Source of the DNA: a virus | IMG/VR virus record: IMGVR_UViG_3300033146_001635 | Span: 30,584 to 94,583 of that record | Length of the DNA stretch: 64,000 nt | Strand: one strand, 5' to 3' | In this document: one piece after another, positions 1-42,232 of the stretch | How positions within the stretch are numbered: position 1 is the stretch's first letter | Layout of the letters: each line of letters starts with the position of its first letter | Translations under genes and position numbers: made by a program | Notes under the pieces: generated by a model | What the model was told of the DNA's origin: nothing | Databases searched by the model: none | The model's input: only the letters and a program-made list of their open reading frames with translations

Positions 1-2287
1 TTTGCATATCAATTGTATAATTTTCTTTCATTCTAACATCTAAATCAATTTTTAATGGTATTTCATAAATTGGTTCAATCCAATCACATGATGTATATAA
101 ATATTTTTTATTTGTATTTCTTGCATATATAAAATCATCCATTTCTGGTTTAACATATGTCCAATCAATTTCACCTGAAGTTGTATCAATACTAATACAA
201 GTAGCAATATAACCAATTTTATCTTGCCATTCAGGAAATTCTGTTCCATTTATAATATATCTTTCATTAATTTGTGGAACCCAATTAACATATTCTAAAT
301 CAATATAATCCACGGGCAACCGTGTTTCTTTATTTAATAACATATTTCTTAATTCTTTTGATGTATTTGCAAATTTTAAATTTACAAAATCTGTCATCAT
401 TCTTATATCTTCAAAATTAATATTATCAATAATTCGTTGAATGACATAATATTCAAAATCAGCTTTATTAGCAATCAAATCATAATAATCTTTTCTAATA
501 ACAGGAATATCATATATAGAAATACTACCATCTTTATTTATTACCGTATTAGATAACATTGTGTGATTTAAATTTTTTCTAAAAATAAATGATATCGAAT
601 ATTGATTTAATCTTCCTTTTGTTGGATGATAAAATGTAAAATAATATGTTTCTTTGTTTTCAGGTAATAATTCATATGGTGTAAAAGATATTTCAAAAAA
701 TCGACCAACAGTATTAATTGTCATATTCTGATGAACAAGAGTGTTTGTAACTTCTAATAAACATTCAACTTCATCAAAATCAGTTTCAGTTGTTTGAAAA
801 TATACTTTTAAATATACAGTAGTATAATCTGTTTCAACCAACAAACTTGTTGCAAAAAAATTATATTCTTCTAAACTTAATCCAACTGAAATTAAATTTA
901 AATCATATATAACTTCTTTAGAAGTATATTTGTATCTTGTTATTTCTAAATCTTTATCTATTTCAATATTAAATGGTAAAATATATATATCCCCCAAATA
1001 TGAAATTTCTTGATATTTAGGTATTTTTATAATTCCATCATTAAAATCACATTGTATATTTTCACATGCAGTTGAATCAAGTGTTATATGAACATTTTCT
1101 GTTGGAACAATTTCATTTTTATACATTAAGATAGAATAAATTTGCATTTCATTGGTACGAATATCTGATCGTTTTAATACAGGATATGTATTTTTAGCAA
1201 GTGGGGTATCTTCAGCTAATGATCCAACTACCTTATAATCATTTTCAGAAACAAGTCTGTGTAATGCGGTTAAGTTATTAATTGCGTTAGCTTTGATAAC
1301 TTCTAAACTTGGTTCATCTTCTCCACCTTGTGCGGGTGAAGGGTTAGATACAGAATAATTGATTTCAACTCTTTCACCTGTGCCAGTTACACCATAAATA
1401 TTATCTGTTATAATATTCTGACCAGATATAATATTACCTCTTTCACCTAATGTAGTAAAAGCTGTTACATATATAATACTATTAACAGGAGGTTGATAAC
1501 CTATTAATCCATTACCAAAATATATTTTTTGTCCTATATCACTTTTTCTAATTACAAAACCCCTATCATTTGGAGACATGAGATATATTGATGAAAACTG
1601 GTCATAAATATATTCTATATCATTACCAGGTTCCACAACTTTTACTTCTATAGCAGATAATTGACCATCTAATCTTATTTCATATTCTGTAAATTGATAT
1701 TCTAAATGATTTTTATTAACAGAAAATTCAAATTTTTCTACATTATATTGTTTCGCATAAATCATTATATTGAATGTTGTCATTACTTCATTATCATAAT
1801 CAATATAAACTGATAAATTTTCTGAAACATCTTTATCATATTTATAAGCCGTTACTATATTATTACGTTCAACTACAACCTTGACATTATAATCAATAAT
1901 AAAATTTATATTATCTATTTTAAAATTTGAATATTTTGGAATAACAAAAGTAACTAAACCATCTGTGAATCTAAAAGGAAATGACAATATTAAATTAATA
2001 GTTGAATGTTTAGCATTATAAGGAGTGTAGCCAATACTAGCTGCTAAATCCATTACACTATTATTTAATTGAGCTTTTGTTAAGAAAAATTCTTTATAAA
2101 CAGAAATTTGATAAAATAAAATATTAGATGTTAATGTTGATAATATATTTATAATATAAGATAAAAAAGAAGATTTGGTTAAATCAACATCAACAAGATC
2201 TAAATATTGTTTAATCTCTTCTATTAACTGTGTACGGATTGCTTCACGAGATAAAAATATTTCATTTGATAGAGGTGATATTGCCAT
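1..2287 (-). CDS. Baseplate wedge protein, T4 gp6-like (partial at window edge)
   Basis: The frame is open from an ATG at 2287 to the left edge of the window, so the C-terminus is missing (at least 762 codons present). The N-terminal 100 residues have the layout of T4-like gp6 wedge subunits: a start like MAISPLSNEIFLSREAIRTQ, an LIEEIKQYL helix, a segment reading LSYIINILSTLTSNILFYQI, and SVMDLAASIGYTPYNAKHST. In T4, gp6 forms the ring linking baseplate wedges. It is the last gene of the leftward baseplate series here, directly after a wedge-type gene and a gp25-like gene, which supports the call. The assignment rests on pattern and gene order. Confidence 0.75.
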   Translation of the reverse strand, partial: MAISPLSNEIFLSREAIRTQLIEEIKQYLDLVDVDLTKSSFLSYIINILSTLTSNILFYQISVYKEFFLTKAQLNNSVMDLAASIGYTPYNAKHSTINLILSFPFRFTDGLVTFVIPKYSNFKIDNINFIIDYNVKVVVERNNIVTAYKYDKDVSENLSVYIDYDNEVMTTFNIMIYAKQYNVEKFEFSVNKNHLEYQFTEYEIRLDGQLSAIEVKVVEPGNDIEYIYDQFSSIYLMSPNDRGFVIRKSDIGQKIYFGNGLIGYQPPVNSIIYVTAFTTLGERGNIISGQNIITDNIYGVTGTGERVEINYSVSNPSPAQGGEDEPSLEVIKANAINNLTALHRLVSENDYKVVGSLAEDTPLAKNTYPVLKRSDIRTNEMQIYSILMYKNEIVPTENVHITLDSTACENIQCDFNDGIIKIPKYQEISYLGDIYILPFNIEIDKDLEITRYKYTSKEVIYDLNLISVGLSLEEYNFFATSLLVETDYTTVYLKVYFQTTETDFDEVECLLEVTNTLVHQNMTINTVGRFFEISFTPYELLPENKETYYFTFYHPTKGRLNQYSISFIFRKNLNHTMLSNTVINKDGSISIYDIPVIRKDYYDLIANKADFEYYVIQRIIDNINFEDIRMMTDFVNLKFANTSKELRNMLLNKETRLPVDYIDLEYVNWVPQINERYIINGTEFPEWQDKIGYIATCISIDTTSGEIDWTYVKPEMDDFIYARNTNKKYLYTSCDWIEPIYEIPLKIDLDVRMKENYTIDMQ

Positions 2288-2298
2288 TTTATAAAACC

Positions 2299-2955
2299 TT
2301 ATAATAAATAAAAACCAGAATTAGAATCAAATCTGTTTTTAACACTAGCTTTTAATTTTGAATTCATATCCATTAAATTTAATAATAATGTAGCATTTTC
2401 AATGGTATGAAGTTGTTTGTCATATTCAAAAAACATATATGTGTCATTAGTTTGATTTTCAACTTCTTGTATAGTTCGTGATTGGTCAACTTCTATTTTC
2501 AGTTTCCAAAAACGTCTATCGGTATTGGGCGCAATTTCAACACCTGATACATGATATAGCGGATGTTGATTAGGCTGCATTTGTAAATAATCTTGTTCAA
2601 ATTGAATTATATCATGTGGATATGGTATAAATTTATATTCAGATGGAATAACAAAAAATGATTCAGTTAATTTATTTTGACCAATTTCACTTGCATCAAA
2701 TGAAACTATTGAAACATCTTCAATGAAAAAAATAGGAAGTAATAAAAATTTATCCCATCTAATTCCTGTTAAATCACCAATTTCTTCATATGCACCACCC
2801 ATTACATATTCATTATCCCAAATAGTTTCTTCTTTATTTAGATGATAATATGTAACAAGAAAAGCGACAGCGTCTTTAGCATAATACTCATATACCAAAT
2901 ATTGATATTCATGAATATAATGATAAAGACGCTGCCATAATTGTGGAGAACTCAT
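2299..2955 (-). CDS. Baseplate wedge-type structural protein
   Basis: 218 residues with no signal peptide or TM segment. Aromatic-rich and acidic, as is usual for baseplate proteins, with a segment around residues 45-75 (DNEYVMGGAYEEIGDL, then TGIRWDKFLLLP). It starts 4 bp inside the end of the gp25-like gene, so the two are translationally coupled, and it is followed 12 bp later by the gp6-like gene. T4 has gp53 in this part of the wedge set and that is a possible equivalent, but I cannot show homology from sequence alone. Virion baseplate location is inferred from context. Confidence 0.5.
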   Translation of the reverse strand: MSSPQLWQRLYHYIHEYQYLVYEYYAKDAVAFLVTYYHLNKEETIWDNEYVMGGAYEEIGDLTGIRWDKFLLLPIFFIEDVSIVSFDASEIGQNKLTESFFVIPSEYKFIPYPHDIIQFEQDYLQMQPNQHPLYHVSGVEIAPNTDRRFWKLKIEVDQSRTIQEVENQTNDTYMFFEYDKQLHTIENATLLLNLMDMNSKLKASVKNRFDSNSGFYLL

Positions 2956-3374
2956 TGAGCAGTATCCTTAATTTTTACCGTTAATGTAGATTTTTCACCG
3001 TGATAATTAACTATTATATCAACAATAAATCCTTTTCCCGGTGGTTTAGCAAATTTTACTTTAACATCTTCAATGGAAGCTCTATTATCATAATAATAAA
3101 TGCTATTATAAATTTCTTCCCTGATTTGTGACATTGTTTCAACATCAGCAGGTTGGTATAATAAATCATATAAACCACTTCCATAAGGAGGATCATGGTC
3201 ATATGTTCCTCTTGGAGTTAATAAAATATTATTCCAAGAATTCATAATAACATTTAAATTTTCAATTCTTTTAAAATCACCAATAGGTGATATTGCAGAA
3301 ACATAATCAATGTATTTAACTGACTCAGTTCTGGTTCGTGGAGTTAAATTAAACCGTGATAATGGATTAGCCAT
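2952..3374 (-). CDS. Baseplate wedge protein, gp25-like
   Basis: 140 residues, the usual size of the T4 gp25/GPW family. The hallmark region is present: a middle segment ILLTPRGTYDHDPPYGSGL, followed by a helix with EEIYNSIYYYDNRASIEDV and a C-terminal beta part. In contractile tails gp25 sits in the wedge and contacts the first sheath ring. An AGGAGAT-type ribosome site precedes the ATG at 3374. It overlaps the next baseplate gene by 4 bp. Confidence 0.85.
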   Translation of the reverse strand: MANPLSRFNLTPRTRTESVKYIDYVSAISPIGDFKRIENLNVIMNSWNNILLTPRGTYDHDPPYGSGLYDLLYQPADVETMSQIREEIYNSIYYYDNRASIEDVKVKFAKPPGKGFIVDIIVNYHGEKSTLTVKIKDTAQ

Positions 3375-4560: not shown

Positions 4561-5241
4561 CTATTTTTTGATTTTCTTTTGAATCTTTTTTATTTCACTC
4601 TGTATTTTTTCTCTATATTTAGAAGGATTTTTTGTTTTATTAGATAAATCAAGAGATTTTTTCAAAGTTTTAATTTTCATTTGATATGCTTTATTTTGAT
4701 AATTAGTTATACAAGCCTGTTTTTCATCACCAGTTTTACCTTTACAATATTGTGCAGCTTTTGAAAAATAATTTTTATATATTTTATAAGCACCCGCGAT
4801 AGCAATAGCAGCCAAAACAGTCCAACCTATTTCAGTAGAATGATCTTTAATAACATCTAAAATAGAATGAGGATGATTTACATCGGGTACTATTGAATGT
4901 GAATTAACTGTAGGATGTGGTTTATTTTCAACATAATCTTTATGCAAGTTAGTTGGAACAATTGATTTTGTTCCAGTATCAGTTTTATGGAATTTTTTAG
5001 GAATTATACTTTCTGATAATAAAATATCAAAATCATGTTTCAAATCTTCTATTAAATACGTAACTACAGATGGACCAAAAACATCTATACATTCAAATAA
5101 ATTATTTTGTAAAAATAAAGCAGCTTGCCCTAATTCTGCAATTTCTTCATGAATATTTAACCATTCTAAATCTGGATTAGTTTCAAATATATCTTTTTCA
5201 TTTCTATGAATATAATGCACTGATTCATATAAGATGCCCAT
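4561..5241 (-). CDS. Cys-helix family virion-type membrane protein, paralogue A
   Basis: 226 residues. The N-terminal half is acidic and unlike the other paralogues. A single hydrophobic segment (about residues 140-158, WTVLAAIAIAGAYKIYKNY) is followed by the family's C-terminal module: YFSKAAQYCKGKTGDEKQAC, then basic helices with the NPSKYREKIQSEIKKIQKKI pattern. The second cysteine pair of the module is lost here (NPSKYR where relatives have NPxKCR). Function unknown. It lies between tail and baseplate genes, so a virion or ejected protein is plausible. Confidence 0.6.
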   Translation of the reverse strand: MGILYESVHYIHRNEKDIFETNPDLEWLNIHEEIAELGQAALFLQNNLFECIDVFGPSVVTYLIEDLKHDFDILLSESIIPKKFHKTDTGTKSIVPTNLHKDYVENKPHPTVNSHSIVPDVNHPHSILDVIKDHSTEIGWTVLAAIAIAGAYKIYKNYFSKAAQYCKGKTGDEKQACITNYQNKAYQMKIKTLKKSLDLSNKTKNPSKYREKIQSEIKKIQKKIKK

Positions 5242-5253
5242 CAGTAATCTCCT

Positions 5254-6336
5254 TTAAATCCTATTACGTAATTTAATAATTTTTTGTTGAATTTCATGTC
5301 TACATTTTATAGGATTGGATGATTTTTTACACATTCCTATTGATTTTTGTAATACTTTTATTCTTTCATTAATAGCTTTTCTTTTAAATTGTATTATACA
5401 ATCATTCTTTTCTGCACCACTTTTATTACTACAAGCTTGCCCAGCTTTTGAAAAATATCGTTGATATGCTTTATACGATAAATACCCGGCTACACCAACT
5501 AAAGCAGCTACCCCAATTGTTGTTCCGTGATTTTGAACAAATTGATATACTTTTGGAAAATTATCCTGTAATTTATGTGCTAAATTTGTAAAAAATCCAT
5601 CTGTTTCTTTTGGTTCAAGAACATGTGGGGAAGGTTTTGTTTCTATAATTTTAGGAGTATTTTTGATTTTTTTTGGTTCAGATGGTTTTTCTTTACTTGT
5701 ATCATTATTAGAGCCAGTAGCTAATTTATGTAAATTTTTTAAAAAAGTTTTTCTCGATTCGTCACTTGCCTTAACAGATTGTTCCATTGATGAAGATTCT
5801 TTTGGTTTAAAGCCAACTTTTTCAGGACCCTGACCTATATTAAAAGCCTTTTTAAAATTATCCACCATTTTTTTGTTAGATGGATTTTTCAAATCTTTGT
5901 TAACCAAATTTAAATTTTTTATTTTTTTAAACATTCGTTGATTTGATGGTTTTTTCAAATCAGATTTAATCATATTAGTTATATCAGTAGCTATATCTTC
6001 ATTAAGAATATTTTTACTTGTAATACTTTTTAATGATCCAATTTCATGAATAAAATTATATATAACATCATTATCAATAATTTCAGTTAAATTATAACTA
6101 TAATCAATAATATGATTTTTTAATTTGTTTAATAAAATATTCTCATATAATTCTATATTCACATTTTTAGGAGATTTTTTTCCAATTATAGCATAAGACA
6201 ATACATCTGTATCTGATAAATTATTTATAGATTCAGATATAGTAATATTATTTTTAAAATTTTCTTTTAATGCTAATCGAATAAATTCAATTAATAAAGA
6301 ACTTTCAAAAATATTTATATGTTTATTAATAAACAT
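5254..6336 (-). CDS. Cys-helix family virion-type membrane protein, paralogue B
   Basis: 360 residues. An N-terminal helical domain of about 85 residues contains the family motif LSDTDVLSYAIIGKKSPKN. Residues 128-165 hold two imperfect repeats (DLKKPSNQRMFKK and DLKNPSNKKMVDN). A Lys/Pro-rich linker follows, then a TM segment (IGVAALVGVAGYLSYKAYQR), then the four-cysteine C-terminal module (AGQACSNKSGAEKNDC ... MCKKSSNPIKCRHEIQ). Close relatives lie on both sides, so this is a tandem expansion. No known function. Confidence 0.65.
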   Translation of the reverse strand: MFINKHINIFESSLLIEFIRLALKENFKNNITISESINNLSDTDVLSYAIIGKKSPKNVNIELYENILLNKLKNHIIDYSYNLTEIIDNDVIYNFIHEIGSLKSITSKNILNEDIATDITNMIKSDLKKPSNQRMFKKIKNLNLVNKDLKNPSNKKMVDNFKKAFNIGQGPEKVGFKPKESSSMEQSVKASDESRKTFLKNLHKLATGSNNDTSKEKPSEPKKIKNTPKIIETKPSPHVLEPKETDGFFTNLAHKLQDNFPKVYQFVQNHGTTIGVAALVGVAGYLSYKAYQRYFSKAGQACSNKSGAEKNDCIIQFKRKAINERIKVLQKSIGMCKKSSNPIKCRHEIQQKIIKLRNRI

Positions 6337-8376: not shown

Positions 8377-10332
8377 TTATTTGATATAGAAATTCAATTC
8401 AATCTTTTCAGTTACCCGAGTCGGGGTTAATGTAACATTGACATGAAAAGTTTTTGTTTTCTTTTCATAATCACTTGCACCAACTTCAATTGAATAACTA
8501 TATAATCCACGTCTAGATGAAACATCTTCCAGAAAACTGGTAATATCATTACCAACACTATCCCAAGTTGTATTATCATTTAATTCAAAAATATAAAAAC
8601 GACAATATCTTTCAAGAGCTTCCTTACAATATAATACAAGACGAACAATATTCAGATCTTGCATTGCACTTGGTTTAGCTTGGGTTGTTAGTTGCCCCCA
8701 AACAGCATAACCAATATTAAATTTAACAATTGGATTTAACTGTCTAAGATACATTTGATCTCTTTGTTCAAGACGAGGATTAAATCTCAATTCTTGAATA
8801 GAATCAATAACACCTCTTTGGAATCCAGCAATAGCATACCAGACTTCTGATACATTATCATTTCTCGGAGCTAAATATGACATATGATACAGAGGGGATA
8901 CCCAAATATCTGCGCCCGTAAATGCATCAAAAATCTTATTATATCCTTCATATAAAGCACATAAATAAGTATTGAAATTATGATCAGAATTTCTTTTGGC
9001 CATAGCTGTATTGAAATCAGTATTATCACCATTGTCTAATAAGGCAACACAATCACGACGAGTATTAACTAATTGAGAAATGGATTGTTTTACTGATGTT
9101 GGATAACCAGCATCAAAAACAATAGTATAATACATTTTTTCTCTATCAAGTATTTCCTCATCTAAAATACCAGCATATCCTTGTGCTAATAAAGTTTCGC
9201 ACATAGGCATATTAACATTATGGTTTATATCATATATAGAACCATCTGAACCTTTTCTAAGAGCGATTTCACCACCGATAAAAGGTTCTGTTAAATCTGA
9301 TAAATCTTTACGAATATAATATTCAACACTATAATCAGTATCGTCAAAAATAGCTGTATCACCAATCCATTCTTGACTAGCGGTTGATAAATCTCTATCA
9401 TTAAAAATATTTACAGTTTCATTGTCAACACCAGAAGAAGCACCTAACCACCCATATAATCTATTACCACGTTGGTCAATTGCAACAATAGCATATGTCG
9501 AAAGCCCAGTTTCAGCTTGATTAGCCCATTCACTAAAATCTTGTTTAAGATCTGTAATAGAAGCTAATCCTGGTGTTCTTTCTGTAGTGCTTGTACCAAT
9601 TCTATTATCATAATTTTTAACGCATAACTGATACCCCGGTGAATATTCACCATTTGGAAGCATACATTCCGCTCTTAATAAACTTGAATATTTTTCAAGA
9701 ATATCAGTAATAAAAATAGAATCACCAGATGAATCTCTGGCTTCTGGGTTAAATGAAACAGAAAATGATTCAACAATTACTTCATCCCCATCAGCTTGTT
9801 TTTCATATATATCTATAATATATACACCTTCAAACATTGGATTGGCATGTCTAGTTAATCGAACTGAAACTAGATTATAATAATCACCACGACCAATTGG
9901 GTGTAAAATACAAATTGGATATGTATCACCAACTTGTACTAAATTTGATTGAATTTCTGCTTGTGTTGAAATACCACTAATATAAGTAGTTAAAATATCA
10001 GCTGTAGAATCTGTACCATTCCAAACAGCATCAATCCTTAAATTAGAGAATGTTGCATCATCTGGCATAACACGCATAAACCATAATGAACCAGATTCAC
10101 CAAGATAGTTATAAGCATTATATAAACCTTGCCCATAATGTTTCCCAAAAGTGGTTATATTAGGTTCACCCCATTCACTAATTAATTCATTTCGTGACCC
10201 AACAAAAATAGCCTCGTTATCACGACCTTTTTTTGTTAGAGCACACATAAAACCTGTTGTAGCAGGAACTGCTGAAACGTATGTAGAAAGATCAATTATC
10301 TTCGTATATACGCCCGGTGAAATATGAGCCAT
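8377..10332 (-). CDS. Contractile tail sheath protein
   Basis: 651 residues, the normal length for a T4-like gp18. The start reads MAHISPGVYTKIIDLSTYV, the typical sheath opening with the PGVY motif. The C-terminal third contains the conserved domain (SAMQDLNIVRLVLYCKEALE ... DITSFLEDVSSRRGLYSYSI) that forms the intersubunit mesh. It polymerises around the tube and contracts on infection. GAGGT-type ribosome site before the ATG. Confidence 0.93.
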   Translation of the reverse strand: MAHISPGVYTKIIDLSTYVSAVPATTGFMCALTKKGRDNEAIFVGSRNELISEWGEPNITTFGKHYGQGLYNAYNYLGESGSLWFMRVMPDDATFSNLRIDAVWNGTDSTADILTTYISGISTQAEIQSNLVQVGDTYPICILHPIGRGDYYNLVSVRLTRHANPMFEGVYIIDIYEKQADGDEVIVESFSVSFNPEARDSSGDSIFITDILEKYSSLLRAECMLPNGEYSPGYQLCVKNYDNRIGTSTTERTPGLASITDLKQDFSEWANQAETGLSTYAIVAIDQRGNRLYGWLGASSGVDNETVNIFNDRDLSTASQEWIGDTAIFDDTDYSVEYYIRKDLSDLTEPFIGGEIALRKGSDGSIYDINHNVNMPMCETLLAQGYAGILDEEILDREKMYYTIVFDAGYPTSVKQSISQLVNTRRDCVALLDNGDNTDFNTAMAKRNSDHNFNTYLCALYEGYNKIFDAFTGADIWVSPLYHMSYLAPRNDNVSEVWYAIAGFQRGVIDSIQELRFNPRLEQRDQMYLRQLNPIVKFNIGYAVWGQLTTQAKPSAMQDLNIVRLVLYCKEALERYCRFYIFELNDNTTWDSVGNDITSFLEDVSSRRGLYSYSIEVGASDYEKKTKTFHVNVTLTPTRVTEKIELNFYIK

Positions 10333-10387
10333 TTCTGACCTCCATTAAATATAAAAACAAAAATTATCTTTTCTATGTATAAAAATT

Positions 10388-11050
10388 TTAGAAAAATATA
10401 TACCAAATAAACAATAATTGGCGTGTATCTACTTTAACAACGGTGGGAAATGTTATACGAGAAAACATATGGAAAGGGCCGGTATGATTAGGTACAGGGC
10501 CATCAACAGCCGTAAATAACGCTGCTTCTGAAATCTGACTTCCATTTGCATCTCCAAGAGAGACTCTTGATACAGTTTTAACAATTAACCACGAATTGTT
10601 GTTATAACCATCTTGTTCAAATTCAATACTTTCAATAGGTTTTTTAAAATAAAATCCATCATGAAAATCACCACATGTAGAATCAATAGCACTAATGGGT
10701 AATTCATTATATAAATCAATATCCGTAGCCACAGGTGATGACGGATTAAAAGGATCACCTACATTAACACCACCTGAGCCGATACCAAACCATGATATAT
10801 ATTCAGCTGGATCTGTTAATACTTGGGTATTCTTTAAATTAAACATTCTCTGGGCAATTAATTCACGCCCCTGATAAACAACTAGATTGTGTTTACCTAA
10901 TAATTTTTCATTACCATTTTCATCTATTTCGAAAATTTCAACCCATCCTTGGGGTCTTCTCGCACCAGATACCTTATTAGAAAATGCATCGACTAAACAA
11001 TTATCACCATAAAAATCTTTGGCAACAATGTTATTTTTTAAATTTTTCAT
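10388..11050 (-). CDS. Tail/baseplate structural protein
   Basis: 220 residues. Layout typical of a family of phage structural proteins: GWVEIFEIDENGNEKLLGKH early, LVVYQGRELIAQRMF, a WFGIGSGG segment, ISEAALF, and a C-terminus FSRITFPTVVKVDTRQLLFI followed by aromatic residues. It carries one copy of the DSTC motif shared with the two upstream genes. A strong late-promoter motif lies about 40 bp upstream. Exact place in the virion unknown. Confidence 0.55.
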   Translation of the reverse strand: MKNLKNNIVAKDFYGDNCLVDAFSNKVSGARRPQGWVEIFEIDENGNEKLLGKHNLVVYQGRELIAQRMFNLKNTQVLTDPAEYISWFGIGSGGVNVGDPFNPSSPVATDIDLYNELPISAIDSTCGDFHDGFYFKKPIESIEFEQDGYNNNSWLIVKTVSRVSLGDANGSQISEAALFTAVDGPVPNHTGPFHMFSRITFPTVVKVDTRQLLFIWYIFF

Positions 11051-11087: not shown

Positions 11088-11104
11088 TTCATTTATATGT
11101 TCTC
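11088..11104 (-). promoter_or_regulatory. Late-promoter motif upstream of 10388-11050 gene
   Basis: Minus strand GAGAACATATAAATGAA, a close match to the window-wide motif. The ATATAAATGA core resembles the T4 late promoter TATAAATA. It would also drive the downstream sheath gene. Confidence 0.65.
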
Positions 11105-32089: not shown

Positions 32090-33031
32090 ATGTATACAAC
32101 AATTGATAGTATCAATAATGTGCTTACATCATATAAAAATGGAAACTACAATGTTATTATTTTAAAAGATGGTACTAAAATTAGACAAACAATTGATAAT
32201 GAATTTCAACCAGATTTTCCAGAATCAATGGATGTTAAAATAACAAATAGATGTGATTTAAATTGTAATTATTGCCATGAAAATTCTGTAGAAAATGGTC
32301 GGCATTGTAATATTGAACAATTAATTTCAGTTTTAAAAAATTTTCCAGTACCCGGTGTTGAATTAGCCATTGGTGGTGGTAATCCATTGGAACATCCATA
32401 TCTTATTGATTTTTTACAATGGGCTAAATCTAATGGATTTATTTGTAATTTAACAATAAATGGTAAACACATAAATCATATTTTAAATAAAATTATAGAA
32501 AAAAATCTAATTCATGGATTAGGTATTTCATATACAAATGAAACAGAAAAATTAATTGAATATCCCCACACAGTCTGTCATTTAATTGCAGGTATTCATT
32601 CTATTAAGAATATTCAACATGCATTAGATATATATGGAAAAGTTTTAATTCTTGGATATAAAAATGTAGGGAGAGGATCTACTTTTGGAGTTAAAAACAA
32701 TAAAGAAATAAATAATAATATTCTACAATTATCAAATAATTTATGGAAATTATTTCAACACGAAGGTATTATAAGTTTTGATTGTTTAGCAATTGACCAA
32801 TTACATTTAAAAAAATATTTTACTAACCATGAATGGGAAACATTTTATATGGGCGATGATGGAAAGTTTTCTATGTATTTTGATGCTGTTAATATGATAT
32901 ATGGTAGAAGTTCAACATTACAACACAGAGAAATGGAATTTTGTAAAGATATTCATATATTTAACTTTTTTAAAAAAATATCCAATATAAAAAGAGACAT
33001 AGATGAGGTGATTAATAATGTTAATAAATAA
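32090..33031 (+). CDS. Radical SAM protein
   Basis: 313 residues. Canonical CxxxCxxC iron-sulphur motif (C55, C59, C62 in NRCDLNCNYCHE), a GGN-type motif (LAIGGGNPLEHP) and a likely beta6-barrel core. The C-terminal 120 residues are not a recognised SPASM domain, although a late Cys is present (FCKDIHIF). The reaction is unknown. It overlaps the next gene by 14 bp. Confidence 0.8.
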   Translation: MYTTIDSINNVLTSYKNGNYNVIILKDGTKIRQTIDNEFQPDFPESMDVKITNRCDLNCNYCHENSVENGRHCNIEQLISVLKNFPVPGVELAIGGGNPLEHPYLIDFLQWAKSNGFICNLTINGKHINHILNKIIEKNLIHGLGISYTNETEKLIEYPHTVCHLIAGIHSIKNIQHALDIYGKVLILGYKNVGRGSTFGVKNNKEINNNILQLSNNLWKLFQHEGIISFDCLAIDQLHLKKYFTNHEWETFYMGDDGKFSMYFDAVNMIYGRSSTLQHREMEFCKDIHIFNFFKKISNIKRDIDEVINNVNK

Positions 33032-36722: not shown

Positions 36723-37312
36723 GCAACACTCAGATAAGAATACCATACCAAGTGCCAATAAATTATTCTATTACATCTTCCACAGATACAAATTTGACAA
36801 CAACATCAACATCAACATATCCATACATCACTATTGATACAGATACATATAATTATATCACCAATGTAATAGGATTAAATAAAAATAATTCATATAAATT
36901 ACCTAATGGTGGTACATTAAAAATTGATGAATTAGGTAATTTCAAAATTATAGAAAATAACAATATTACTTACAAATCTTGTAATATAAGAGAATTTAAT
37001 AAATACATTAATGCCAGTGATCTTTTGGAAGGATTTATCAATTTTCTCGGAGAGCAAGGCATGAAACAAATAGATGTATTGAAAACTCCGATTGAGATTT
37101 TTATAACTTGGTTAATATTTAAAGCAGCAGAACAAGATAAGATAGATGAAGAAACAACCTTAAAAGAATTGGAAGATAAAACAAAACAATTAAAACATTC
37201 AAATAGATGCTTGTTTTGTGGAAAATTTATTTCTAAAAAGTTTAAAAAATTAGGAATAAATTTTTGCAATACATTGCACTTAGAACGATATATGGAAAAG
37301 GTTCACATATGA
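36719..37312 (+). CDS. Unknown protein with C-terminal zinc finger
   Basis: 197 residues. Thr-rich N-terminus, a middle beta/helix domain (SYKLPNGGTLKIDELGNFKI), and a C-terminal zinc-finger-like CLFCGKFISKKF ... FCNTLHLERYM. Overlaps the next gene by 4 bp (ATGA). Confidence 0.5.
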   Translation: MSNTQIRIPYQVPINYSITSSTDTNLTTTSTSTYPYITIDTDTYNYITNVIGLNKNNSYKLPNGGTLKIDELGNFKIIENNNITYKSCNIREFNKYINASDLLEGFINFLGEQGMKQIDVLKTPIEIFITWLIFKAAEQDKIDEETTLKELEDKTKQLKHSNRCLFCGKFISKKFKKLGINFCNTLHLERYMEKVHI

Positions 37313-37629
37313 TTTTCGATTTGAAAATAACATTTGTTTTAGAACATAATAATGATCCTCCTTTTATAAGAGGTGATTATCATATATGTATTTCAAATAT
37401 ACGCAATAACAATGGAGTTATTATGGATAATGGCCATGTGCATGCTTATTATGAACATGGTATTCAATTATTTAAAGATGAAAACTGCACTATATCTGAT
37501 ACATTATTTAATAAATTAAAAAACTATTTAGAAGAAGATCCATTTAAATATGATTCAATTTTTGAAAAAGCTATTGAAAAATTTAATAATCAATTTCAAT
37601 TGTTTTATGAAGAAAACAATATAAACTAA
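37309..37629 (+). CDS. Small unknown protein before the hairpin array
   Basis: 106 residues from the ATG at 37309 (ATGA overlap, AAAAGG site). Beta-rich N-half (DLKITFVLEHNNDPPFIRGD) and helical C-half. Its codons for EHNND include a plus-strand copy of the late-promoter motif (37341-37357). Last gene before 3 kb of non-coding repeats. Confidence 0.5.
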   Translation: MIFDLKITFVLEHNNDPPFIRGDYHICISNIRNNNGVIMDNGHVHAYYEHGIQLFKDENCTISDTLFNKLKNYLEEDPFKYDSIFEKAIEKFNNQFQLFYEENNIN

Positions 37630-38854
37630 AATAAACAAAAAAATATAATTTGATTATCGAATGTTAAATTTATTAAAAATTGCACAATATTATATTGTGA
37701 AAATACAGGGTGTAACTTATTAATAATCATAAAAATTTGCACATTAATAAAATGTGACCACTCGGATAACAATTGCTATTTATAAAAATAAAATTACACA
37801 ATATTATATTGTGAAAGTAACGAGTGTAACTTATTAATAATCATAAAAATTTGCACATTAATAAAATGTGATCCGATGGACATAGACTATTATTTATAAA
37901 AATAATTATATTGTGTCGAATTGAATAATGTGGGTCCCCTATATATTTAATATTTTATATTTTTGAATTTGCACATCAATAAGATGTGATGTAGTAGATT
38001 CCCGTCTAACAAATATAAAAAAATTTGCATATCAAAAAGATGTGACATGCTTTCCTGGTAGATCCCACTATTGATAGTTATAAAAATAAAATTACACAAT
38101 ATAATATTGTGATTGAGAAATATGGTGACAATATAAAATAATATATTATAAAACTACACATTGTAATAATGTGTCCGAGTGCCGGAGTCGAAAATATTAT
38201 TAGATTTTGCACGTTAATAAAACGTGACTGCGGACTTTAACATCTATTTATAAAAATAAAATTACACAATATTATATTGTGAAAGAAAATAAGGAGCAAA
38301 ACTTATTAATAATCATAAAAATTTGCACATTAATAAAATGTGACCAATGGGGACAATGCAAAATAATATATTATTATAAACTACACATTGTAATAATGTG
38401 TCCGTGTGCCAGGATCGTAAATATTATTAGATTTTACACATTAATAAAATGTGACACAGTCGATATCAACACCTATTTATAAAAATAAAATTACACAATA
38501 TTATATTGTGAAAAAAAATAAGGAGCAAAACTTATTAATAATCATAAAAATTTGCACATCAATTAGCTGTGACATCCCTTCGCTTTCAATCCTTCATAAA
38601 CAATTAATTAATATATTAATAAAAAATAAAATTGCACAATATTATATTGTGAGAGGACAGAATGTAACTTATTAATAATCATAAAAATTTGCACATTATT
38701 AAAATGTAACATTCGTTCCACCTATACGATCTTTCATAAACACTCAATTAATATTAATAAAAATAAAATTACACAATATTATATTGTGGAAAGTAGGAAA
38801 TGTAATTTATTAATAATCATAAAAATTTGCACATCAATTAGATGTGACACACCT

Positions 38855-39554
38855 CCTCGACTTTTACCAACTTCATACATAACAATATATCTAAATTATC
38901 TATTAAATATTTAAATTTGCACATTAATAAAATGTGACCGTTGATGGATGAATTTCATACATAACAATATATCTAAATTATCTATTAAATATTTAAATTT
39001 GCACATTAATAAAATGTGACCATCCTACTGGATGAATTTCATACATAACAATATATCTAAATTATCTATTAAATATTTAAATTTACACATTAATAAAATG
39101 TGACCCATATGTCGTGATTATACTAACTTCATACATAAAACAATATATCTAAGTTATTTATTAAATATTTAAATTTGCACATTAATAAAATGTGACCACG
39201 GTGGGGCAGATATCAACTTCATACATAAAACAATATATCTAAGTTATTTATTAAATATTTAAATTTGCACATTAATAAAATGTGGCCAGGGTTGAACAAA
39301 TATCAACTTCATACATAAAACAATATATTCAAGTTATCTTTTAAACATTTAAATTTGCACATTAATAAGATGTGACCTCGGTTGAGCAGATATCAACTTC
39401 ATACATAAAACAATATATTCAAGTTATCTTTTAAACATTTAAATTTGCACATTAATAAAATGTGACCACCGTGGGGCAGATATCAACTTCATACATAAAA
39501 CAATATAATCAAGTTATTTATTAAATATTTAAATTTGCACATTAATAAAATGTG
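38855..39554 (+). repeat. Sub-array with 82-92 bp units, exact 90-bp period in part
   Basis: Eight type A units share a long flank (TTCATACATAAAACAATATA ... TTAAATATTTAAATTTG). Cores at 39178, 39268, 39358, 39448 and 39538 are exactly 90 bp apart. The flanks are near identical, while the 13-15 nt after the hairpin differ: CACGGTGGGGCAGA, CAGGGTTGAACAAA, CTCGGTTGAGCAGA, CACCGTGGGGCAGA, CTCCCTTCCCCTTC. Confidence 0.9.
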
Positions 39555-39898
39555 ACTCCCTTCCCCTTCTGGATCCTTCATATAATATCAATAAAAATAA
39601 AATTGTACAATATTTTATTATGACAATTTCTGACTAAAACATATTATTATATTTCATATTTTTAAATTTACACATTAATAAAATGTGGCCGGCCTTCTCT
39701 CTTATATATCTTGTTTATTTACAAAATTACAAATTATTTGCATATTAATAAAATGTGACTTGAGCGTGCGGTTGATAAATATTAAGATTTATAAATAATA
39801 AAATTACACAATATTATATTATGATAACCCCGATTAACCAATACATGTTATACAATTATATATAAATTAATACAATATTATCAAAATTTTAAAATTTG

Positions 39899-40608
39899 TA
39901 CATCAAAAAGATGTAACTTGGAAAAATAAGATTGTTTATTATTATTATATATTCAAAAATTTGTATATCAAAAAGATATAACGATGATTGTCATAACTAT
40001 ACATATTTAAATTTGCACATCAAAAAGATGTGACAAACTGGAACCTTGCAAAAAAATATGACAAGCTGGGATTTGAATTAATAAATATATTTAAAATTTG
40101 CACATCAAAAAGATGTGATTGGATGCTTACAACACATAAGTATACAATAAATTATTCTAAATACAGGTGGATGAGATTAATTTACTCACTTGTATTTAAA
40201 ATTTGTACATTAAAAAAATGTAACTTTAAAAAATTGTTTATTATTATATATTCAAAAATTTGTATATCAAAAAGATATAACGATGAAGGTCATAACTATA
40301 CATATTTAAAATTTGCACATCAAAAAGATATGACCCGAAAAAATTGCTTATTATTATATATTCAAAAATTTGTATATCAAAAAGATATAATGACGTGGAA
40401 GGAATACTAACATACATATTTAAAATTTACACATCAAAAAGATGTGGCTATACCGGAGTACACCATACATATTTAAAATTTACACATCAAAAAGATGTGA
40501 CATGTTTTATTCTCCTATCAAATATATAAAAATTTACACATCAAAAAGATGTGACATACTTGATTTCCCCTATCAAATATATAAAAATTTACACATCAAA
40601 AAGATATG
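39899..40608 (+). repeat. Distal sub-array of CAAAAAG-loop hairpins
   Basis: Twelve units with an AAAAA-type loop. Stems include CACATC/GATGTG, TACATC/GATGTA, TATATC/GATATA and TACATT/AATGTA. A block of about 100 bp (39930-40033) is repeated at 40230-40332. Spacing is shorter (about 50-60 bp) than in the 90-bp block. Confidence 0.8.
40159..40197. repeat. Degenerate copy of the 40639-40677 terminator inside the array
   Basis: Sixty bases at 40145-40204 match 40625-40684 with five differences, an offset of exactly 480 bp. The copied hairpin is weakened (two G-U pairs and one mismatch). Shows that the array end was duplicated together with the neighbouring terminator. Confidence 0.8.
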
Positions 40609-40638
40609 GCGGCCAAAGAATATCCAATAAATTATTTT

Positions 40639-40677
40639 AAATACAGGTGGATAAGATTAATTTATCCACCTGTATTT
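40639..40677. terminator. Terminator at array/acetyltransferase boundary
   Basis: Perfect 16-bp stem (AAATACAGGTGGATAA and complement). It overlaps the stop codon of the gene ending at 40676 and would also stop rightward transcription out of the array. Confidence 0.75.
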
Positions 40678-41191
40678 AAAATTTTATCATATATTGGAAT
40701 TCACCAAATTTTTTATCATTAGCACTAAATAAAAATTTAAAACCATTTTTTTTATAAAAAGGCATAATATCTTTTTTACATGATAAACCAATTCCATAAT
40801 CAGAATATTTATATGGTATATTTTCAACAGCTGATAATAATTCAGTACCAATTTTTTGTTTCTGATATTTTTTATCTACGATTAACCAATTAATAACTCT
40901 TATAAATTTTTTATTATATCCAGCTTTTTTTAAAGCATGTTTTAAATCTTGGTGTAATTTAACAATATCTACTACTTTAATTGATATTAAACCTATTAAT
41001 TTTTTTTCAGGATTTTGTGCTAAAAGGATTGAAGCATAAGGTGGGTATTTTTGAGAATAACAGATTTTAGATTTTATTTCTTTTGGAGTCCAATTATTAT
41101 TAGAAGAAACAAAAGAAAAAGATTGATTAAATAAATCAGCAATCTCTTTCTTTCGATCTATACATTCTTCTGGAGATAATTTATTAATCAT
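40676..41191 (-). CDS. GNAT-family acetyltransferase
   Basis: 171 residues. The GNAT core is visible: KKLIGLISIKVVDI (strand 4), NWLIVDKKYQKQKIGTELLS (acetyl-CoA loop, Q/RxxG form) and PFYKKNGFKFLF (C-terminal motif). Substrate unknown. No clear ribosome site before the ATG; a duplicated fragment of this same gene lies just upstream, so the 5' region may have been rearranged. Confidence 0.7.
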   Translation of the reverse strand: MINKLSPEECIDRKKEIADLFNQSFSFVSSNNNWTPKEIKSKICYSQKYPPYASILLAQNPEKKLIGLISIKVVDIVKLHQDLKHALKKAGYNKKFIRVINWLIVDKKYQKQKIGTELLSAVENIPYKYSDYGIGLSCKKDIMPFYKKNGFKFLFSANDKKFGEFQYMIKF

Positions 41192-41226: not shown

Positions 41227-41270
41227 ATTGATATTAAACCTATTAATTTTTTTTCAGGATTTTGTGCTAA
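41227..41270. repeat. 44-bp exact duplicate of an internal acetyltransferase segment
   Basis: 41227-41270 is identical to 40980-41023 inside the acetyltransferase gene. It supplies the last codons and the stop of the adjacent Cys-helix gene in a different reading frame. Confidence 0.9.
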
Positions 41271-41679
41271 TTGGAAGATGATAAAACGATGGTTGAAATA
41301 TTCCTGCTATTCGTTGGTTTTGTTTTAATTGTTGAATAAGTTTTTCTTTTTCTTTTACAAAAGAAGGTTTGTTATAACATTTAAGTCTTTTTTCACGATC
41401 TTTAAGTTCAAAACATCTTGATCTTACTTTTTCTAAAATATATATTTTCTTTTCTAAGAATACTTTTCTAACATCTTGTAAACATTTTTCTTTTTTAATA
41501 CCATCATATTCTTTACATCTTTTTTCACCTTTTTTTAAAATATCATAAACTTTTTTTTGTTTATAATATTGCCTAACCAAATGCAATGAAATACCTATGG
41601 CTAAACCTAATACATTTACAGCTCCAAAATCTTCTGTTATAATTTCATCAAAATATTCTAATAAATATTTATTATCCAT
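41254..41679 (-). CDS. Cys-helix family protein, paralogue E (altered C-terminus)
   Basis: 141 residues. A hydrophobic N-terminal part (VNVLGLAIGISLHLVRQYYK) is followed by KGEKRCKEYDGIKKEKCLQD, VRKVFLEKKIYILEKV and further Cys (SRCFELKDREKRLKC). It is a tandem relative of the next gene (shared KCLxDVRKVFLEKKI). The last seven residues and the stop come from the 44-bp acetyltransferase duplicate, so the original C-terminus has been replaced. Confidence 0.6.
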   Translation of the reverse strand: MDNKYLLEYFDEIITEDFGAVNVLGLAIGISLHLVRQYYKQKKVYDILKKGEKRCKEYDGIKKEKCLQDVRKVFLEKKIYILEKVRSRCFELKDREKRLKCYNKPSFVKEKEKLIQQLKQNQRIAGIFQPSFYHLPISTKS

Positions 41680-41703: not shown

Positions 41704-42216
41704 TTAAACTTTTGGTTTAGTACCAGCATGTTTTGTATCAAACCACCCTCTTTTTGCAATATCATAAGATGGTTGGAGTCCAAATCCTGCTACATTTCTA
41801 TCATTCTTTTTTCTTTCTTCTTGAGCTTTGGTTATTTGTTTAGCTATAGTTTCACGACATTTTTTATTATCACCACATTTAGCCATAGCTTGTTGTAATG
41901 CATGTATTTTCTTTTCAAGAAAAACCTTTCTAACATCCATTAAACATTTCTCTTTTTGTTTCCCAGAATATTTATCACATCTTTTCTTACCATTAGCTAA
42001 TATATCATTAACTTTGTATCTATCTATAAAATATCTAGTTAATCTTCCAGCAATAGCACCCACGGATGCAGCCGCAACCATAGATAATAATTCTTCTGTC
42101 AAATATTGATTATCTTCAATTTCGATAGTATTATTTTCAAATTCATTAATTATATTTAAATTTTCTGTTAACCTAACACATTCATCAAAATTTTCTAAAA
42201 TAAATAATTTATTCAT
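41704..42216 (-). CDS. Cys-helix family protein, paralogue F
   Basis: 170 residues from the ATG at 42216 (GGAG site 6 bp upstream). One hydrophobic segment (LLSMVAAASVGAIAGRLTRY), then KKRCDKYSGKQKEKCLMDVR, and a second Cys pair (AKCGDNKKCRETIAKQI). The order matches the family module of the 4561-7539 genes. Function unknown; membrane association likely. Confidence 0.6.
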   Translation of the reverse strand: MNKLFILENFDECVRLTENLNIINEFENNTIEIEDNQYLTEELLSMVAAASVGAIAGRLTRYFIDRYKVNDILANGKKRCDKYSGKQKEKCLMDVRKVFLEKKIHALQQAMAKCGDNKKCRETIAKQITKAQEERKKNDRNVAGFGLQPSYDIAKRGWFDTKHAGTKPKV

Positions 42217-42232
42217 TATAATCTCCATAATA

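Follow-up and report, generated by a model that had tools for sequence, protein, structure and literature searches.

The window analysed here is a stretch of 64,000 nucleotides (bases 30584-94583) of a 94,583-bp viral contig with 27% GC. It encodes the T4-like terminase of a contractile-tail phage together with the beta and beta' subunits of a multi-subunit RNA polymerase, and the source virus is a jumbo phage. The polymerase beta subunit shares 57% identity with that of IMG/VR contig 3300026544_000002 (G001), the closest relative, and 40-45% with those of many other jumbo-phage contigs. The contig probably covers the genome incompletely, since the proteins scanned included no recognisable DNA polymerase. 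Searches with single proteins for close relatives returned nothing, and a search using FolE2 found no host. The phage also carries ThiF/E1-like and JAB-like proteins and the GTP cyclohydrolase FolE2 (L008 178-4281 and 10238-11095) as well as a radical SAM protein (window 32090-33031); FolE2 may point to 7-deazaguanine modification of DNA or RNA. Two neighbouring small proteins on the minus strand (41254-41679 and 41704-42228), which we could assign to no family, have the segment KRC(D/K)-Y-KEKCL-DVRKVFLEKKI in common and are likely duplicates.

A single gene-free stretch of 3 kb, flanked by convergent genes, holds a tandem array of hairpin units. A covariance model places 43 units at 37683-40608, 43/43 of them on the plus strand, and finds none in the rest of the contig; the units are spaced 52-133 bp apart and span 2.9 kb. 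Read as coding sequence, the array offers short ORFs only, none of them gene-like. Upstream, at 37342-37355 on the plus strand, lies an exact copy of the motif GAACATAWWAWTGA, of which the contig holds 13 exact copies against 0.06 expected and the two closest relatives, G001 and G002, hold eight and five. These copies stand mostly 21-58 nt ahead of start codons and, judged by this placement and abundance, the motif is very probably a phage promoter. Further putative promoters of this kind occur in the window and in L008/L009, e.g. at 11102, 15715, 23429, 27124, 30442, 47993 and 63002 on the minus strand; the motif is common to the two closest relatives and nearly absent from those at 40-45% identity. 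Between the motif and the array lies an ORF of 68 aa (37423-37629, plus strand) with GGAG 5 nt ahead of its ATG, to which we could assign no function. It is in frame with a longer ORF of 107 aa starting at 37309, and the shorter start is favoured by the promoter position and the ribosome-binding site.

Downstream, a bidirectional, terminator-like hairpin with a 22-bp stem (40634-40682; -27.6 kcal/mol, z -8.6) is predicted on both strands and separates the array (plus strand) from a GNAT gene (minus strand). A decayed copy of this hairpin (40158-40198, plus strand; -13.9 kcal/mol, z -4.0) probably marks an earlier array end. Since a promoter motif lies upstream, a fold scan between the 68-aa ORF and the array revealed no terminator-like fold, and the terminal hairpin follows the last unit, a single plus-strand transcript is likely. 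Separate promoters for each unit are unsupported, as 50 sigma70-type promoters were found against 41 expected by chance.

Anatomy and block duplications of the array

Alignment of 42 units on their hairpins defines the anatomy of the array. The common part of a unit consists of AAAWTTR, a 6-bp stem, a 5-nt A/T loop and AC, and is followed by a hypervariable segment of ~15 nt (the tail) and an AT-rich linker. The stem itself occurs in several versions (CACATT, CACATC, TATATC, TACATC, TACATT, CACGTT and CACAAT), and its arms vary as pairs: 97.6% of cells are paired, and 27 cells are changed in both arms compared with 7.9 in shuffles, a count reached by 0/500 shuffles that overstates the number of independent events, as duplication links many of the units. 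Stem length and pairing are kept even across strongly diverged unit types, and the pairing is real. The one-sided departures comprise four G-U, five A-C and one other and do not point to RNA of one strand or the other, so that the pairing cannot separate RNA from single-stranded DNA or a cruciform, nor one strand from the other.

The initial annotation had described five consecutive units with near-identical flanks at exact 90-bp spacing, and these indeed exist, with hairpins starting at 39178, 39268, 39358, 39448 and 39538 and variable segments at 39195-39211, 39285-39301, 39375-39391, 39465-39481 and 39555-39571 on the plus strand; they turn out, however, to be the middle of the far larger array. 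They belong to a series of 82-92-bp units (38872-39577, plus strand) that share 65-67 near-identical bases and carry variable segments 15-23 nt long. The left part of the array (37683-38846, plus strand) is built of unit type A (CACAAT-ATTAT-ATTGTG), which partly alternates with type B (CACATT/C...), and contains block duplications of 114 bp and 229 bp. Sequence inspection additionally revealed decayed half-units on the plus strand, at 37904-37939 with tails and right arms only, and at 40051-40075 with AAAAATATGAC plus the tail AAGCTGGGATTTG. Hierarchical block duplications are clear in the sequence. Within the 90-bp units a period of 270 fits better than one of 90 (scores 957 vs 496).

Hypervariable segments beside constant hairpins

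Variation among the 90-bp units had been reported to follow directly on the hairpin, and this proves correct: 8/15 variable columns of the first four units fall within the 17-column tail (hypergeometric p = 0.001). As had also been noticed, a single base separates the tails at 39195 and 39465 (ACCACGGTGGGGCAGAT and ACCACCGTGGGGCAGAT). As the main example of localized change, however, this pair (units 39178 and 39448) fails, having no tail excess (1/17 in the tail vs 6/93 in the flank); its tail and right flank move together, as expected for a 270-bp block duplication. A role as a plain recent duplicate would also suit an array devoid of function, to which we return below.

It is the array as a whole that carries the observation. 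Over 11 closely related pairs of units, some units being used in two pairs and the pairs thus partly non-independent, 51/192 tail sites differ compared with 44/782 in the rest of the unit. Tails hence diverge 4.7-fold faster per site than the rest (Mantel-Haenszel odds ratio 6.0; circular-shift p = 5e-5), with 10/11 pairs in the same direction; this comparison leaves out the misaligned pair 37740/37854. That pair is included in the profile of differences along the unit, which peaks at 0.38-0.39 from +16 to +35 of the hairpin start and amounts to ~0.03 within the hairpin. The clearest case is the pair 38920/39002, with one difference over 85 flanking columns and tails that are rewritten and differ in length (CGTTGATGGATGAAT and CATCCTACTGGATGAAT). 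Furthermore, the variable segment is sharply delimited, at a place that stays fixed relative to the hairpin across unit types with different linkers.

The base composition sets the segments apart as well. Columns 19-33 of the 42 aligned units carry almost no information and have 41-47% GC, whereas the sequence on both sides, including the AT-rich linker downstream, has 15%. The mean GC content of the tails is 43% vs 23% in intergenic DNA of the phage (p = 2.5e-15), and neutral drift alone in a genome of 27% GC does not explain it. Diversifying selection or directed change, as expected for recognition sequences, had been proposed from the 90-bp units; concentration of change after the hairpin and maintenance of 43% GC agree with this proposal, but there is no convincing excess of target matches. 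Neither directed change nor positive selection can be distinguished from a process in which the flanks are homogenised while selection keeps the tails different.

Relatives, targets and partner proteins

The viral, phage, plasmid and bacterial collections searched yielded no comparable array, nor did the covariance model detect one in 38 jumbo-phage records with a related RNA polymerase, ten named records and 20 further ones. Its sole significant match outside the contig, in G039, is a single one within a coding region and was taken as chance; exact and degenerate matches to the hairpin pattern in viral contigs and bacterial genomes were likewise judged chance or unrelated. A scan for hairpin arrays that is independent of sequence found at most seven similar hairpins in 2 kb in the fetched loci and ~1.9 Mb of relatives, compared with 28 within 2.5 kb in the present array. 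Since no relative with a comparable array was found, the array has no independent conservation to draw on; in the closest relative its homologous place cannot be read, because contig G001 stops at the point matching 33.5 kb of the window, and none of the relatives found extends over this region.

Repeats of other kinds were seen along the way. L169 (IMGVR_UViG_3300012931_000097) carries at 5065-6067 repeated stem-flanked elements with a common AACAGCAATTT, two of which appear to break tRNA-like genes, neither called by ARAGORN. On the minus strand of L147 (IMGVR_UViG_3300031669_004775), a related jumbo phage, four stem-flanked elements with a common GAAGACTTTATGTAATTTCAGA lie at 9902-10730; this repeated element is non-coding, and one copy encloses an apparent partial tRNA. 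In another related phage, L236 (G030, IMGVR_UViG_3300001533_002103) has at 70-3328 a long tandem array of 69-bp units that is possibly coding.

Comparison of the tails with the phage's own contig, E. coli rRNA and 1.8 Mb of related phages gave no convincing sense or antisense excess (largest z ~2), 15-mer tails being too short for database-wide target searches. Neither Pfam nor PADLOC identified cas genes or a Cas effector among the proteins scanned, the PADLOC scans made gave no CRISPR match, and PF07282 had no match in six frames; no Cas12/TnpB effector was recognised in this incomplete contig, and the host might supply one. A Nop-domain Tas protein was sought through PF01798, which had no match in six frames of the contig in a search that did detect control archaea. 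The Rfam 15 covariance models gave 0 matches above the gathering threshold in the 64-kb window, no family match at relaxed thresholds and, with E allowed up to 5, no hit to a CRISPR repeat.

Possible functions and known systems

We favour, at a probability of roughly 0.45, the reading that the array may be transcribed into a precursor from which small RNAs of a guide-like or antisense type arise, every one of them combining a constant hairpin handle with a variable recognition segment. Sequence features suggest it: a constant upstream part, a diverse and exposed downstream part, the GC contrast, one orientation and a dedicated transcript. With no target found and no known effector recognised in this part of the genome, the guide function is one that we infer. 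The phage promoter, the 68-aa ORF, the ~43 hairpin units and the terminator would form one transcription unit, whose plus-strand RNA would be turned into small RNAs by cutting or trimming between units. A protein would recognise the constant 5' part of each (AAAWUUR, hairpin and AC), leaving the exposed variable segment of ~15-20 nt to base-pair with a nucleic-acid target, e.g. RNA or DNA of the host or of a competitor phage. Block duplication would enlarge the array, segments would then diverge under selection for new targets, and exchange between units would keep the handles alike.

A bolder version, in which the array belongs to a new phage-encoded RNA-guided system, with ~43 processed small RNAs that combine a hairpin handle with a fast-diversifying guide of ~15-20 nt and an effector unrelated to Cas, Tas or TnpB whose gene lies beyond the sequenced part or in the host, we consider doubtful. 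If the array does make guide or antisense RNAs, it would be a viral multi-target RNA arsenal with built-in diversification of its recognition segments, which would bear on host takeover by jumbo phages or on their fights with rival phages.

The main rival places the function in the DNA. The palindromes would bind a dimeric phage protein, as in an origin, centromere or condensation array, or extrude as hairpins, and the adjacent 15 nt would be a fast-mutating gap; cutting next to the hairpin followed by untemplated repair is one way this could happen, and it would also pull GC towards 50%. Departures from pairing in both arms without an RNA-type preference, confinement of all sites to one gene-free 3-kb stretch between convergent genes, and change directly beside the hairpin on one side only are all compatible with such a role. 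Yet the outer elements are asymmetric (AAAWTTR left, AC right) and all units share one direction, promoter motif and terminator-like hairpin bracket them on the plus strand, and no initiator or partition candidate was recognised among the contig proteins scanned. We regard a DNA-level array as unlikely; even so, it would be an unusual hotspot in which a fixed hairpin adjoins hypermutable sequence.

Quite unlikely is a tandem repeat without function, amplified selfishly or neutrally, in which unequal exchange homogenises the AT-rich units and the tails are old sequence that escaped it. Clear, hierarchical block duplications, the behaviour of pair 39178/39448 and the restriction of the array to one record across all collections searched speak for it, but neutral tails should approach ~20% GC, and it does not account for stem length and pairing that persist across highly diverged units, nor for a sharp, hairpin-fixed boundary of the variable segment despite differing linkers. 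Finally, an RNA decoy array with tails as unimportant spacers, for which phages offer precedents (Racr, PMC10651486; pseudo-ToxI, PMC3475682) and in which the hairpin and its edges would be the constant part, is improbable given stems too variable for a close mimic, the lack of an Rfam match even at relaxed thresholds, the lack of conserved loop-tail pairing and tails at 43% GC where drift to ~20% would be expected.

We also compared the array with known repeat systems. Like iteron or centromere arrays it consists of dyad sites repeated along an AT-rich region free of genes, but its flanks are strictly asymmetric, the hypervariable, GC-rich segment lies on one side only, and promoter and terminator-like hairpin bracket the whole. 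Phages also carry expandable antitoxin-like repeats, the pseudo-ToxI of type III toxin-antitoxin systems (PMC3475682), and the present array is likewise phage-borne, expandable and tandem, with A-rich stretches separating its structured units; its units are, however, not near-identical 36-mers, each contains a hypervariable part, no ToxI-like pseudoknot is visible, since the A/T loop has no conserved pairing to the tail, and Rfam gives no match to a type III antitoxin. Like the repeat-mimicking Racr RNAs, or solitary repeat units, of phages (PMC10651486), the array is repeat-type, phage-encoded, downstream of a promoter and without recognised cas genes, but it has 43 units instead of a solitary one, GC-rich variable tails and no Rfam CRISPR-repeat match.

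Two systems come closer. Tandem interspaced guide RNA (TIGR) arrays include a stem-loop form (PMC12045711), and the present array, too, is tandem and phage-borne, with short variable segments, variable palindromes, a 3' terminator and two alternating unit types in its left part. It differs in having one variable segment of ~15 nt per unit, where TIGR has two of 8-12 nt, and a period of 52-133 as opposed to ~36 nt; the conserved columns show no box C/D consensus and one variable block per unit (TIGR definition, PMC12045711), and the contig lacks PF01798, the Nop-domain Tas protein expected nearby.

CRISPR arrays occur in phages too (PMC7162821). Like them, the present array strings together many units in which a recurring hairpin handle precedes a segment peculiar to the unit, and units 38920 and 39002 are alike except that the segment next to the repeat is new. 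In the crRNAs of Cas12 (type V), which carry a 5' hairpin handle, the order is AAUUU-hairpin-guide, and the order within the array unit resembles it. Instead of near-identical direct repeats (~23-50 nt) with unique spacers, however, the array has a core and handles of variable sequence, AT-rich linkers of 20-50 bases that differ between sub-arrays and segments of ~15-20 nt, and it came without cas genes, Rfam CRISPR-repeat match or protospacer in the searches made. Altogether, the array is in layout most like a CRISPR or TIGR array but was assigned to neither, and it has the appearance of a collection of small guide-type RNAs that falls into none of the known families.
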